A stretch of DNA of 64,000 nt from Aquisalinus luteolus (GTDB lineage Bacteria > Pseudomonadota > Alphaproteobacteria > Caulobacterales > Parvularculaceae): NCBI RefSeq assembly GCF_009712425.2, contig NZ_VCJR02000001.1, positions 310,001 through 374,000 of the forward strand. Direction: 5' to 3'. The first letter of the stretch is position 1, and the number at the start of each line of letters is the position of its first letter. A program made the translations under genes and the position numbers. This document shows positions 27,155 to 32,202 of this stretch, one piece after another. The notes beneath the pieces are model-generated. The model was not told where the DNA came from. It did not search any database and saw nothing but the letters and a program-made list of their open reading frames with translations.

Positions 27155-28684
27155 ATGACTTCCTTTATCAGACGTTACGCCCTGCACGCGATCATTGGCC
27201 TGCTCGCGGCGCTCAGCATTTTCTCTCCCGGCGCGGTCACTTCTGCCATGCAGGCGGCGGCAGGCTGGTTCCTCCTCCACTTCGACTGGCTGACGCTGGG
27301 CGTCTCCTCGCTCGCCGTTATCGCATGTCTTGCCGCGGCGCTCGGACCTTGGGGCAGCATGCGGCTCGGCACGGCAGGATCGAAGCCTGAATTCTCGACC
27401 CTGTCATGGATGTCGATGCTGTTTGCCGCCGGCATGGGCGCGGGGCTCGTCTTCTGGGGGGCGGCGGAACCGCTGATCTTCACCGTCTCTCCACCGCCCG
27501 GAACCGCGCCACCGGAAACGGAGGCTGCGATCCGGCAGGCCTATGCGCTGACCATGTTTCACTGGGCGTTCCAGGCCTGGGCGATCTATACCGTCGCCGC
27601 GCTTGCCGTTGCCTATATGGCGTTTCGGCTGGGCAAGCCGCCGCTGCCGAGCGTCGTTTTCGGGTTCCTGCCGCGCTGGGCGAAGGTTCTCATAGACATG
27701 ATCGCGTTGATGGCGGTGATCTTCGGTGTCATCGCCTCGATCGGGCAGGGCGGCCTGCAGATGGGCGCAGGCGTCGAGATCATCAGCGGTGTTGAGGGCA
27801 TCGACGGGCCGGTCCTGCAATCTGTGCTGATCCTGATCCTCGGTGGTGTGTTCCTGCTTTCTGCCTGGGGCGGGCTGAAACGCGGCATCGAGCCGCTTTC
27901 CGGCTTCAACATGATCCTCGTCGTCGTGCTCGCGATCTTCGTCTTCGCAGTTGGGCCGACGCGCGAGCTGATCGGCACGATGGGGGACATGGCGGCCGCC
28001 TATCTTGGCGATATCGTGCCGCTGTCCTTCACGCTGCGCCCGGAAGGGGTGGCGCGCGAGTGGACCCGCGATTGGTCGCTGACATACTTTTTGTGGTGGA
28101 TCGCGTGGACGCCCTTTGTCAGCGTCTTCATCGCCCGGGTCAGCCGTGGACGGACGATCCGCCAGTTCGTGCTCGGTGCTATGCTGGTGCCATGCATAGT
28201 CACGTTGTTGTGGTTCGCGATCATGGGCGGCACGGCGATTTCCCTGCAGCTGGAACAGGGTGTCGATCTCGGCGTCAGCGATTTCTCCACAGCTGCCATG
28301 GCGACCTACATGATGCTGGAGCAGTTGCCGCTGACACTGATCACCCAGATCGTCGCCTTCACGCTGGTCTTCATCTTCCTTGTAACCAGCGCAGATTCCG
28401 GCGCCTATGTCATGGCGATGTTTTCGGCCCGCACCGATTTGTCGCCCCCGCGCTGGGAACGGATATTCTGGGGCGTGGTGCTGATCGCGCTGACCATTGG
28501 TGCGCTGTTGTCAGCACAGGGACAGATGGCGACGCGAGCCTTTGCCGTGGTTGGGTCTATTCCGCTGTGCTTCCTGATGGCGGCACAGACAATCGCCGCA
28601 GGCACTACGATCTGGCGCGACTGGCGGGCCAGGCACGACGTCACCGAGCAATCCGATGAAGGGTCTAGCGCTCCGTCAGCTTGA
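27155..28684 (+). CDS. BCCT family betaine/choline/carnitine-type transporter
   Basis: The 509-residue protein has twelve predicted helices. The glycine-rich GMGAGLVFWGAAEPL motif and FHWAFQAWAIYTVAAL are those of the betaine-choline-carnitine transporter family. The signature WDWSLTYFLWWIAWTP-type segment is DWSLTYFLWWIAWTPFVS followed by RVSRGRTIRQF. Such carriers import osmolytes or methylated amines with sodium or protons. The Trp-rich box for trimethylammonium is present, so betaine-like substrates are likely. Its 3' end overlaps the convergent OmpA-like gene by 20 bases. Confidence 0.94.
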   Translation: MTSFIRRYALHAIIGLLAALSIFSPGAVTSAMQAAAGWFLLHFDWLTLGVSSLAVIACLAAALGPWGSMRLGTAGSKPEFSTLSWMSMLFAAGMGAGLVFWGAAEPLIFTVSPPPGTAPPETEAAIRQAYALTMFHWAFQAWAIYTVAALAVAYMAFRLGKPPLPSVVFGFLPRWAKVLIDMIALMAVIFGVIASIGQGGLQMGAGVEIISGVEGIDGPVLQSVLILILGGVFLLSAWGGLKRGIEPLSGFNMILVVVLAIFVFAVGPTRELIGTMGDMAAAYLGDIVPLSFTLRPEGVAREWTRDWSLTYFLWWIAWTPFVSVFIARVSRGRTIRQFVLGAMLVPCIVTLLWFAIMGGTAISLQLEQGVDLGVSDFSTAAMATYMMLEQLPLTLITQIVAFTLVFIFLVTSADSGAYVMAMFSARTDLSPPRWERIFWGVVLIALTIGALLSAQGQMATRAFAVVGSIPLCFLMAAQTIAAGTTIWRDWRARHDVTEQSDEGSSAPSA

Positions 28685-29663
28685 ACTCGATCCGGCGGTT
28701 CCGGGCGAGATCGCCGCCCTGTACCAGCGGGTGGTTGGAACCGAAACCGGCAGCGACCAGACGCCGTTCAGGCACGGAATTCTGGGCGAGGAAGCGTACG
28801 ACCGACATGGCCCGCTCCGATGACAGCTGGAGGTTATCCTCGAAATAGGCGCGGCAGCCCGGCCCCAGCGGCTGGGAATCGGCGTGGCCATCGACCCGCA
28901 GCACCCAGTTCACCTCGCTCGGGATATCGTCCTGAATATCAAGGAGCACGACCGCGAGCTTGCGCAGTTCTGCCTGCCCCGCCGGGCTGATTGTCGCCGA
29001 GCAGGAGCCGAACAGGATATCGCTCTCGAACACGAAACGGTCGCCGACGACGCGAACATCGTCCCGGTCGCCCAAGGCCTCGCGCAGCGCCTCGAAAAAG
29101 CGCGAGCGTACATCGGCCAGCTCCTGCACCTTGCGGGCAAGGGCGGCGTTGAGGCGCGATGACAGGTTCTCGATCTGCGCTTGTTGCTCAGCGTCCTTGG
29201 CCTCTGCCGCTTCCAGCGCTTCCTGCAGGGAGGCAAGCTGGCGGCGCAGGGCGGCGAGCTGGGCGTTCAGCGTCGCGATCTCGGATTTCTGTTCCTCGCT
29301 CAGCGCCTTTTCCGCTTCCAGCTCCTCGGCGGAGGCGGCGACGGCGCTCTGGGATTCGGCGAGCGCCGCAGTCAGGCCCGCGAGTTCATCGTCCTTCTGT
29401 TCGATCGTGTCCTGCAGGGCTAGGACGCGCTGGCGCAACTGGTCGCGCTCGGTCTCGGCCAGCCCCAGCTGGTCGGCGAGCGAGGCGATGCGCGCCTGCA
29501 ACCGTTCAAGTTCTGTTTCCTTGGAGGTCAGTTCCTCGCCCAGATAGAACTGGGCGACGACGAAGATCGACAAGACGAACATGACGACGAGCAATAGCGT
29601 CGACAATCCGTCGACAAAGCCCGGCCATATATTGGCGTCCTGGCGTGAGCGGCGGCGGGCCAT
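28665..29663 (-). CDS. MotB/OmpA-like peptidoglycan-binding stator protein
   Basis: The 332-residue protein has a short basic N-terminus, one membrane helix (about residues 17-37), a long coiled coil (about 43-190) and a C-terminal OmpA/MotB domain. The helix begins WPGFVDGLSTLLLVV with Asp18 in the position of the proton-carrying Asp of MotB/TolR/ExbD. The OmpA domain is seen in RVDGHADSQPL, NLQLSSERAMSVVRFL and RNRRIEFKL. With the MotA-like gene 3 bases upstream it should form a proton-driven envelope motor. It is not flagellar by context. Confidence 0.9.
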   Translation of the reverse strand: MARRRSRQDANIWPGFVDGLSTLLLVVMFVLSIFVVAQFYLGEELTSKETELERLQARIASLADQLGLAETERDQLRQRVLALQDTIEQKDDELAGLTAALAESQSAVAASAEELEAEKALSEEQKSEIATLNAQLAALRRQLASLQEALEAAEAKDAEQQAQIENLSSRLNAALARKVQELADVRSRFFEALREALGDRDDVRVVGDRFVFESDILFGSCSATISPAGQAELRKLAVVLLDIQDDIPSEVNWVLRVDGHADSQPLGPGCRAYFEDNLQLSSERAMSVVRFLAQNSVPERRLVAAGFGSNHPLVQGGDLARNRRIEFKLTER

Positions 29664-29666
29664 GGT

Positions 29667-30662
29667 TTACCGGCCCTTGTTGGGAGAATTCGGCGCAGGC
29701 GGTGTGTCCTCGGCGGGCACGCCCTCGATCAGCGTGCGGCCAAGCATGCGGATCTCGCGGCGCACGTCCTCGCTCGCCTTGGTCTGCGCTTCGGACTGCG
29801 CATTGGCGAGGCGGGTGACCGCAGCCTCGATACGCTGCAGGCCTGAGAGCAGGTCTTCGGGCTTGCCGACTTCCATGGAAGCGCGGTCGCCGCCGCTGGA
29901 GGTCGTGACGGTTTCGGTGATGCCGGACAGCCAGTCTTCAAGGTCCGTATAAAAACGGTTCTGCGCCTGACCGGCCTGGATATCGAGGAAGCCGATGATC
30001 AGCGATCCGGCGAGACCGAATAGGGATGAGGAGAACGCCGTGCCCATGCCGGAGAGCGGCGCCTGCAGCCCGTTGATCAGCTGGCGCACGGCATCGCCGG
30101 CTTCACCCCCGCCACCGGCAGAGGCCAGAGAGCCGATCACCAGCGCAACGGAAGAGACGACCTGCAACAGGCCCCAGAACGTGCCAAGCAGGCCGAGAAA
30201 GACCAGCAGGTTGGAGATATAGCGACCGAACTCGCGGCCCTCGTCAACACGCTGGCCGAGGGAATCGAGGATCGCCCGGGTCGAGGCCTGCGACAGGCGG
30301 CCGCCGCGCTCGTCTGCATCGAGCAGCATACGCGACATGGCGCCGATCAGCGCTGGCGGGCGGGGAAGGCGGGTGCGTGACGGATCAACGGAATTGCGGA
30401 ATGAATTGACCCAGCTGACAGCTGGCCCGACGACGGCGGCTTGGCGAAGATTGTAGATGATGCCGAGGCCGAGGACGAACAGGATCAGCCCGTTCAAGGC
30501 GACGTTGGCCTGGAATGCCTCGACCAGCAGGTTCGTCGGCTGTGGGCTGAGTGGCGACAGGTAGAACGCGATCGCGCCGACACCTGCGAGGAAGATGACC
30601 ATGTTGATGATGTAACCGCCGGGTCCGTTGAAACGGACGGATCGGTCGAGAGAGCGTGACAT
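29667..30662 (-). CDS. MotA/TolQ/ExbB-like proton-channel protein
   Basis: The 331-residue protein has three or four membrane helices. The conserved pair is at about residues 148-180 (LLVFLGLLGTFWGLLQVVSSV) and 205-230 (GTAFSSSLFGLAGSLIIGFLD), with the GLLGTFWGL and GMGTAFSSSLFGL patterns of MotA/ExbB channels. The C-terminal part is a coiled, charged tail ending in a Pro-rich stretch. It is the upstream gene of a two-gene operon with the OmpA-like protein. Its force-driven target is unknown. Similar AB pairs occur in alphaproteobacteria without flagellar genes nearby. Confidence 0.88.
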   Translation of the reverse strand: MSRSLDRSVRFNGPGGYIINMVIFLAGVGAIAFYLSPLSPQPTNLLVEAFQANVALNGLILFVLGLGIIYNLRQAAVVGPAVSWVNSFRNSVDPSRTRLPRPPALIGAMSRMLLDADERGGRLSQASTRAILDSLGQRVDEGREFGRYISNLLVFLGLLGTFWGLLQVVSSVALVIGSLASAGGGGEAGDAVRQLINGLQAPLSGMGTAFSSSLFGLAGSLIIGFLDIQAGQAQNRFYTDLEDWLSGITETVTTSSGGDRASMEVGKPEDLLSGLQRIEAAVTRLANAQSEAQTKASEDVRREIRMLGRTLIEGVPAEDTPPAPNSPNKGR

Positions 30663-31092
30663 GCGTTAATACCCCTTCATACAACACGGGACCCCACAGC
30701 CCCGCCCAAACTCGTCGTCGGGCAGGCAGGCCTGTTTCAGAATAACGGAAAACACCGTGCCGTGAAGCCAAAGCTAGTGATTCTTTGTGTCGTTTTTCCG
30801 GTTATTGTCACGTTTTGCGACAGTTTTTCGGTCTTTTGACCTGATCAACCTAGCTTATCCAGAGGAGTCGCACTGATTGCGCTGTAGAATGATATCTCAG
30901 TATTTTCAATAGATTATGAGATTTTCGCACCCGTTTAGGGGCGAACTCTGTGCACTTTTTAGGCACTCAGTGCATGTTTTCTCTTGCGCACTCAGTGCAG
31001 TCGTGTCACTAATGTGAAGGAAATGTGACACATATGTTTCGTTTCGATGACAAATCCATACCGAAACCCGACTTTATAAGGGAGCAAACATT
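30663..31092. other. 430-base intergenic region between motor pair and exported protein
   Basis: I found no convincing coding frame here. The part near 30750-30960 is relatively AT-rich and includes promoter-like stretches. The notable content is a pair of identical 12-base palindromic units at 30963-30999 and a GTGCAC at 30950-30955. The divergent arrangement means the promoters of the motor operon (minus strand) and of the 31093 gene (plus strand) both lie here. Confidence 0.7.
30963..30999. promoter_or_regulatory. tandem palindromic operators GCACTCAGTGCA
   Basis: GCACTCAGTGCA occurs at 30963-30974 and again at 30988-30999. Each unit contains the perfect dyad GCACT-C-AGTGC. The centre-to-centre spacing is 25 bases, near two and a half helical turns. 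They lie about 95-130 bases upstream of the exported-protein start. Repeated dyads with fixed spacing are typical of cooperative transcription-factor binding. The factor is not known. Confidence 0.6.
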
Positions 31093-31485
31093 ATGACGAA
31101 AAACACTCTGAAAACCTGTCTCGCCGCCGCAGCCTGCCTCATCGCCATGCCGGCCATGAGCGCTTTCGCCGGCGATTTCTCTGCACAGCCTGCCAGCTAT
31201 GACAGCAAGGCCGTGAACTATATCGAATCGCGCCTGAGCGATTCCGTCGGCGCCACAGTGCGCCAGGCCAGCCAGCCTTATCAGGTTGTCGCCAAGCTGA
31301 AAGGCAACAAGGAATACAATTGCTGGGCTGTCGATTATGACGTCCGCGCCGACCTCGGCCGCTCGTCCCGCGGCGCGGGCACCTACACGGTGCTGTTCTA
31401 CAATGGCAAGGCAGTTGCCCTGACAAGCGACCTGCGCACCCGCGTAACCCGCGTGCAGACCGACGCCGTATACGCCTCGCGTTGA
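31093..31485 (+). CDS. small exported protein of unknown function
   Basis: The 130-residue protein has a clear signal peptide: KNTLKTCLAAAACLIAMPAMSAFAG, cleaved near AFA-G (residue 26), shown in part as AMPAMSAFAG. The mature part is about 104 residues with beta-rich segments (YQVVAKLKGNKEYNCWAVDY, YTVLFYNGKAVAL). It has one Cys in the mature domain. I do not recognise the family. It is a monocistronic gene with a GGGAGC ribosome site, a strong terminator downstream, and tandem palindromes in its promoter region. A tightly regulated periplasmic protein is the best description. Confidence 0.8.
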   Translation: MTKNTLKTCLAAAACLIAMPAMSAFAGDFSAQPASYDSKAVNYIESRLSDSVGATVRQASQPYQVVAKLKGNKEYNCWAVDYDVRADLGRSSRGAGTYTVLFYNGKAVALTSDLRTRVTRVQTDAVYASR

Positions 31486-31512: not shown

Positions 31513-31540
31513 AGCCTCCCGGTTTTCGGGGGGCTTTTTT
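31513..31540 (+). terminator. intrinsic terminator after exported-protein gene
   Basis: A 9-bp stem (AGCCTCCCG/CGGGGGGCT with one G-T pair, loop GTTTT) is followed by five more T. It lies 28 bases after the stop codon. Confidence 0.88.
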
Positions 31541-31608
31541 GTTGGCGCGGGTTGACCCCGGGCAGCCCGTCGCGCAACGGTTGCAGCGTGACTTCGGCGG
31601 CTCGAAAA

Positions 31609-32202
31609 ATGCGCATTGGACTGATGCTGGCGCTATTGGCAGCAATGTTGCCGTCATGCGTCAGTGATCCGTACAGCCCGCTTTATGCCTTTCTTGAGCC
31701 GGTCGATGATAAGGCAGTCGTCTCCAAACGTCTGGATGCCGTCGGTTACCGTCCATATGTCATCGGACGCAGCATCACCTACGCGACGCTGCGACGGCGC
31801 AATGACGATACGTCGGATGATTTCAGGACCATCATTGCGGTCGACAAGGACATCGCCTGTCCGGCGCAGGGTGGAGCACCGATTTTCATCTCGGCGGAAT
31901 ATGAAGGTAATATCGAGCAAGCTTGTGCGCATACGGCGGAGCAGTTGAAACGGCTCGAGCGCCACGTACCCTTCGCTTTTCATGACTTTCCGATCATTAT
32001 CGTTTCCGCCAACTACCGGTCCTACATCTATGAGTGGCCGCGCGTAACTGTTCGCGATGGCGGGCTGATCCTGCGCGTTCACGAAGATGGCAACTCCGAT
32101 CCTTTGGCTTGGACGACCTTTTTCCATGTGCGCCATCATGCCCAGACCTATGTCGATTATCCGTGGACCCTGCCACCATCACGCCAGCGCACACTGCTGT
32201 GA
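31609..32202 (+). CDS. lipoprotein of unknown function
   Basis: The 197-residue protein begins with a lipoprotein signal: MRIGLMLALLAAMLPSC with the Cys at residue 17. The mature part has no recognised domain; it includes a YGRS-like VIGRSITYATLRRR segment and a Cys pair (Cys in KDIACPAQ and EQACAHT). I chose the ATG at 31609 because the signal fits there. The codon choice looks less GC-biased than in neighbouring genes, suggesting recent acquisition, but I have not counted it. An 11-base palindrome GCAACGGTTGC lies at 31574-31584, just upstream. Confidence 0.72.
   Translation: MRIGLMLALLAAMLPSCVSDPYSPLYAFLEPVDDKAVVSKRLDAVGYRPYVIGRSITYATLRRRNDDTSDDFRTIIAVDKDIACPAQGGAPIFISAEYEGNIEQACAHTAEQLKRLERHVPFAFHDFPIIIVSANYRSYIYEWPRVTVRDGGLILRVHEDGNSDPLAWTTFFHVRHHAQTYVDYPWTLPPSRQRTLL

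Follow-up and report, generated by a model that had tools for sequence, protein, structure and literature searches.

Which gene do two identical palindromes in the middle of a divergent intergenic region serve, and what binds them? In the 64-kb window (the whole stretch of DNA that was analysed) the 430 bases at 30663-31092 separate a MotA/ExbB-like gene, followed by the gene of an OmpA-domain partner (together, the motor pair), from a gene starting at 31093 that encodes a small exported protein. This region holds both copies of GCACTCAGTGCA, at 30963-30974 and 30988-30999, with a start-to-start distance of 25 bp. A sequence-only reading of the same DNA had described two identical GCACTCAGTGC palindromes with this spacing, which the sequence confirms.

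Two identical palindromes in a divergent region

Is the pair more than an accident of composition? Base composition predicts 0.07 exact GCACTNAGTGC sites in a stretch of 64 kb and, for pairs within 60 bp, a count of 5e-6. The window contains the pair, no third exact site and two sites with one mismatch, at 30870 and 54156. The pairing of the GCACTCAGTGC copies is far beyond chance. Could the palindromes nevertheless be neutral, or act through the structure of the DNA, as a hairpin or terminator does? Chance inverted repeats do occur, and the window has 113 perfect 5-1-5 dyads, among which GCACTNAGTGC is the sole same-arm pair within 60 bp. However, the position, spacing and register of the dyads are conserved across genera and no terminator was called at them, which makes this explanation very improbable.

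A genome scan for GCACTNAGTGC was suggested in the sequence-only reading. The 3.68-Mb genome has exact matches at three sites, the window pair and one more, which lies upstream of a nadA-like gene and is taken as chance, and GCACTNAGTGC was rejected as a genome-wide motif on that count. The scan probably yields just one more site because this spelling is a local divergence of a palindrome found in the relatives, GCGCA-N5-TGCGC.

The small exported protein and its neighbours

The features of the region are collected in Table 1. Comparisons were made with 62 genomes of the family of the window (f1, by inference Parvularculaceae). A first search for homologues of the 31093 protein had matches in 14 of 41 genomes, and a profile search had them in 33 of the 62 family genomes, its own included. 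Between the window and G004, the sister genome from the same genus Aquisalinus, the gene has a dN/dS of ~0.15. The protein belongs to no Pfam or NCBIfam family; its structural model, of modest confidence (mean pLDDT 69), has one helix and an antiparallel sheet, and a comparison with the PDB gave no match at E 0.001. The terminator-like hairpin behind the gene is not significant by itself, as shuffles average 1.0 calls, and an Rfam search returned three matches, all under their gathering scores. Downstream of the hairpin, an ORF at 31552-32202 is lipoprotein-like and has no Pfam or NCBIfam match. On the other side of the intergenic region, the MotA/ExbB-like gene is found in 57 of the 62 family genomes; its product has no Pfam match and a weak ZorA-like NCBIfam match far under the cut-off.

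Table 1. Features of the locus in window coordinates; dyad scores are positions of the 10-position core of GCGCA-N5-TGCGC
Feature	Coordinates	Strand	Remarks
OmpA-domain partner	28665..29663	-	NCBIfam PRK09039 peptidoglycan-binding protein
MotA/ExbB-like inner-membrane protein	29667..30662	-	By inspection; divergent neighbour of the 31093 gene
Distal dyad TCGCACTGATTGCGC	30868..30882	.	9/10; 9/10 in G004; perfect core in G003 and G005
Upstream dyad-like site GCGAACTCTGTGCAC	30941..30955	.	8/10; identical in G004
Dyad 1	30961..30975 (first GCACTNAGTGC copy 30963-30973)	.	6/10 against the family consensus
-35-like hexamer TTGCGC	30984..30989	+	Putative, from alignment with relatives; overlaps dyad 2
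Dyad 2 GCGCACTCAGTGCAG	30986..31000 (second GCACTNAGTGC copy 30988-30998)	.	8/10
Array with 11-bp period	31004..31052	+	TGTCA 31004, TGAAG 31015, TGACA 31026, TTTCG 31037 (degenerate), TGACA 31048
-10-like CACTAA	31007..31012	+	Putative, weak; 17 bp downstream of the -35; TAGTTA there in G003 and G005
130-aa exported protein	31093..31485	+	AxA-type signal peptide by inspection
Terminator-like hairpin	31515..31533	+	Two overlapping calls in the region

Conservation in the sister genome and in the family

The sequence-only reading had made its case depend in part on conservation in relatives. G004 keeps both dyads, at a spacing of 24, and across genera their position, spacing and register are kept as well. 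The central base has changed from C to G in both G004 copies, a change that a symmetric site tolerates. Identity to G004 is 93% over 30941-31055, 55% over 30885-30940 and 69% over 30663-30860, with 88% for the 31093 coding sequence; the distal dyad reaches 84% over 30866-30884 between poorly conserved flanks.

Other genera carry GCGCA-N5-TGCGC at the place of the window's dyads. Sites were scored against this family consensus at 10 core positions in a 15-bp frame. Of the 33 genomes in which the small protein has a match, 30 had their regions upstream of the small gene analysed (G058, G064 and G070 were left out). A dyad with 9 or 10 of the 10 positions is present in 28 of these 30, and TGACA repeats in 27. 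With one mismatch allowed, 28 of the 30 regions together hold 48 sites with the N5 spacer, where dinucleotide shuffles give 1.0; N3 (16 sites) and N14 (14 sites) are both raised, and the rest give 1-7 sites where shuffles give 1-2. TGAC pairs are most frequent at spacings of 11 bp (37 pairs), 22 bp (28) and 33 bp (19), for which shuffles give 0.07-0.17. The best dyads upstream of the small gene in G043 and G050 do not exceed 7/10, and G041, G046 and G056 fail the array cut of at least 13 of 16, a score never reached by shuffles.

How do these elements lie relative to a promoter? In 24 of the 30 regions a dyad of at least 9/10 stands within 40 bp upstream of TTGAC, and 19 of these regions have the two 7-8 bp apart. 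A second dyad overlaps the -35/-10 spacer in some lineages, that of the window included. Two dyads at 25 bp are seen in the window, G003 and G005, and many promoters of the tiny genes described below also have two; several relatives have only one near the promoter. Unlike most relatives, the window lacks TTGAC at its promoter, and a promoter scan of the locus called no consensus promoter, the -10-like CACTAA included. Relative to the array, dyad 1 lies at -54 and dyad 2 at -29, exactly where G003 and G005 have perfect dyads. The assignment of dyad 1 thus depends mainly on its position and on its conservation in G004, not on its consensus score. Taken by sequence, the window's dyads look like a local, diverged form of a family-wide promoter.

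A probable composite promoter before small exported and membrane proteins

This putative promoter is a composite of GCGCA-N5-TGCGC dyads by a TTGAC-like -35, followed by 11-bp TGACA direct repeats over the -10 and the start. A strict pattern of it matches in 37 of the 62 family genomes and its reversed control in none. Neither G000, the window's own genome, nor G004 has a match, because their sites have diverged. Is the composite a property of the family? Among 299 genomes drawn from the order, the strict pattern was found in 36 of the 60 that belong to the family and in six of the 239 from other families; all six of the latter matches are inside open frames of 193-681 codons, and six of 50 family loci lie in frames that long.

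The matches in the 37 genomes were merged by hand into 52 places (a contig end may have split a single locus into G046:C79 and G046:C288). At 49 of these, inspection shows that the next gene encodes a small exported or membrane protein. By eye, the products fall into window-type exported proteins (12, with the gene not visible at G046:C79, where the contig ends), tiny proteins that have one hydrophobic segment (30, two of which are encoded on the strand opposite to the pattern), other tiny hydrophobic proteins (three) and UrcA-like exported proteins (five), while one place is unclear (G045:C31) and one is inside a gene (G045:C10); hydropathy was computed for 13 of the proteins. At G045:C31 (L112/L215) the composite stands by the motor gene, and the short ORF behind it is perhaps the remnant of a small exported gene.

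The window's genome has a second, looser copy of the promoter (G000:C1, near 413,045, ~39 kb past the window end), and so does G004. It precedes a 54-aa protein, MAHITDDTGYHG..., with one hydrophobic segment and no Pfam match, whose gene adjoins rpsD (L223, L219). The dyads singled out in the sequence-only reading were thus real and paired, but the array, the overlap with the -35-like element and this second promoter at a tiny gene had been missed there. The second copy was located via TGACA pairs, after a profile of 12 tiny proteins had missed it; a stricter, poorly designed pattern for tiny-gene promoters matches in five of the 62 family genomes. TGACA pairs number 9 against 0 in a control for G000, 6 against 0 for G004 and 12 against 7 for G005; with no enrichment in G005, such pairs by themselves make an imperfect marker. 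A three-unit TGACA pattern has no match in the window's own genome. One TGACA pair is shared by L237 (G000:C2:96407) and L234 (G004), and in G000 an ammonium-transporter-like gene follows it at ~74 bp.

Exact dyads are few, 87 in the 62 family genomes or ~1.4 each, against 10 for the control. Outside composites, 17 loci were scanned and the dyad was seen in 16: L205 is by another tiny gene, L211 by a window-type small gene and L214 by a phoU-like gene, and the remaining ones are inside or beside unrelated genes. In G024 (L069/L214) the exact dyad comes after TTGAC, upstream of the gene read as phoU-like.

What follows the promoter is not always the same protein. Even at the motor-gene locus unrelated small proteins stand behind it: the product is an exported protein in g1, g2, g4 and g7 and a tiny membrane protein in g5, and in G009 and G017 the composite promoter adjacent to the motor gene precedes a different tiny protein. 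This leads to a tentative, somewhat speculative reading, in which a promoter cassette peculiar to one family (inferred to be Parvularculaceae) joins the operators of two envelope-type signalling systems and is kept while the small protein is replaced. If so, the conserved unit of the response would be the promoter and not its product. The comparisons make an isolated palindrome part of a regulatory unit that spans the lineage and has a rule for membership that can be tested. They draw attention to tiny proteins, exported or in the membrane, for which family libraries gave nothing or sub-threshold matches. The unit also offers a direct route to the regulator, and raises a further question: why would short, fast-changing proteins follow one strongly kept promoter?

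Which gene do the dyads serve?

The composite stands before genes for small exported or membrane proteins, the second copy in the window's genome included, and for this reason the dyads are most likely operators of the 31093 gene. We consider it probable, from these sequence comparisons, that they act within a family-conserved composite promoter that drives the small exported protein. The sequence-only reading had left the choice between the 31093 gene, the motor pair or both; the first is the most likely target, and the motor pair is weakly supported.

But could the divergent motor pair be the target, alone or together with the 31093 gene, and the place of the dyads beside the small gene be secondary? 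The two genes are not always neighbours. Among the 30 genomes, the small-gene locus is beside the motor gene in 18 and on another contig in 10 (G046 is ambiguous, as its contig ends in the promoter, and no motor gene was found in G021). In nine of the 10 genomes with the motor gene on another contig, the dyad is still upstream of the small gene, although another contig is not proof of distance because most of these genomes are drafts. The converse comparison started from the motor gene: 48 upstream regions were taken, the start was found in 38, and 21 of these are not beside the small gene. Control of the motor pair would be favoured by a perfect core within 330 bp in four of the 21 (G006, G058, G010 and G054), by a 9-of-10 core in two more (G052 and G060), and by the conservation of the distal dyad in G003, G004 and G005. 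However, the other 15 have neither a perfect nor a 9-of-10 core, five further g3 genomes have no core near the motor gene, the dyad accompanies the small gene away from the motor gene's contig, and the second promoter copy is by the tiny gene that adjoins rpsD. Control of the motor pair or of both genes is therefore unlikely as the main role of the dyads; the motor pair may be regulated by them, but not as a rule.

Known systems and candidate regulators

Assuming that the dyads are operators of the small gene, which proteins would bind them and the array? The closest published parallel for the dyads is NmpR of Myxococcus xanthus, an NtrC-like regulator reported to bind GCGCA-N5-TGCGC in tandem pairs and to work with sigma-54 (PMC11841059). 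The likeness is in the identical consensus and half-site spacing, present in the relatives (28 of the 30 upstream regions), while the window's matches are loose. Unlike NmpR sites, the family dyads flank a sigma-70-like -35 (TTGAC in relatives) and touch the predicted core promoter, and the phylum is different. NtrX sites have been described as GCA-N9-TGC at envelope genes of Rhodobacter sphaeroides (PMC7240162) and as CAA-N2-5-TTG in S. meliloti (PMC9223101). The dyads share the symmetry of these sites of an NtrC-family regulator, but by inspection the family core is GCG-N9-CGC with an inner CA...TG, and CAA...TTG is not its conserved core.

For the array, the parallel is CenR. In R. sphaeroides, CenR sites are reported as TGA-N8-TGA, with 28 of 31 lying upstream of the -35 and with mostly envelope and exported targets; they are placed upstream of the -35 at activated genes and over the core promoter at repressed genes (PMC9275681). 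The array resembles these sites in its TGA-N8-TGA direct repeat, 11-bp period, gene-wise orientation and mostly envelope and exported targets. It differs from most of them in having three to five units over the -10 and the start, and a more fixed TGACA spelling. If the start is where it is predicted, the array would lie as at CenR-repressed genes. A matrix built from the 31 published CenR sites places overlapping array sites 9th, 15th (on the minus strand), 22nd and 30th among the 127,972 of the window, with eight places elsewhere in it ahead of them.

By analogy, the likeliest binders would be a Fis-type response regulator and a CenR-like regulator. A dimeric regulator with a Fis-type helix-turn-helix (a response regulator of the NtrC, NtrX or RegA class) would bind the paired dyads, and a CenR-like response regulator of the OmpR family would bind the TGACA repeats head to tail. 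Binding at dyad 2 and at the array would most likely repress, since both overlie the likely core promoter, while activation would be possible from a dyad that lies upstream of the -35. Agreement of the two signals would then make the promoter release or fire the small envelope protein. Does the genome encode such proteins? Four Fis-type matches were found in it and three were read, as RegA, an NtrC-like regulator and an NtrX that lacks the GAFTGA motif. Each of them has Fis-type helices; among 10 genomes searched, counterparts of the three also occur outside the family. No perfect dyad, as might mark autoregulation of the ntrX, regA or NtrC-like genes, was seen at the 13 regulator loci scanned (of 14; L287 was excluded), and outside large frames these loci have three 9-of-10 dyads, two near regA and one in the G048 ntrYX stretch.

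Would a dedicated one-component repressor, for example of the TetR or MarR type, account for the dyads just as well? The low number of exact dyads per genome would suit such a protein, as would their nearly perfect symmetry and their overlap with the likely core promoter. The paired sites published for NmpR, with the same 5-N5-5 geometry and consensus, argue instead for a two-component Fis-type regulator, and the dedicated repressor is a plausible but somewhat doubtful alternative.

The array can also be read on the other strand. The Pho box is TGTCA-N6-TGTCA, and TGACA-N6-TGACA is its reverse complement; binding by PhoB would also fit the phoU-like gene that follows the exact dyad in G024. 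Such a box would, however, point away from the small gene, toward which the repeats read TGACA, and no phosphate gene was noticed behind the composite promoters, so that a Pho box is rather unlikely. A Pho box oriented toward the gene was set aside on the same direction of the repeats.

UrcA offers another comparison. In Caulobacter the UrcA promoter is reported to be bound by UzcR, with the motif CATTAC-N6-TTAA (PMC8963506), and the composites of genus g3 precede UrcA-like exported proteins; that of G020 matches TIGR04433 with an E of 0.00019, under the curated cut-off, and the other four were recognized by eye. The UzcR motif was set aside, as by inspection it is not the conserved sequence and is unlike both dyad and array. 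The ChvI motif was compared with the promoter elements and also set aside.

Each element resembles a known one. What looks new is how they are combined, that the combination is nearly confined to one family, and that it goes with small exported proteins. In the literature, judged on titles and abstract openings, no description of this promoter in the family appeared. The recognition region of NtrX reads FICMERSALHRKL in L270 (G000) and L269 (G005), and the others that were read have FIGMERSALHRKL or YIGMERSALHRKL.
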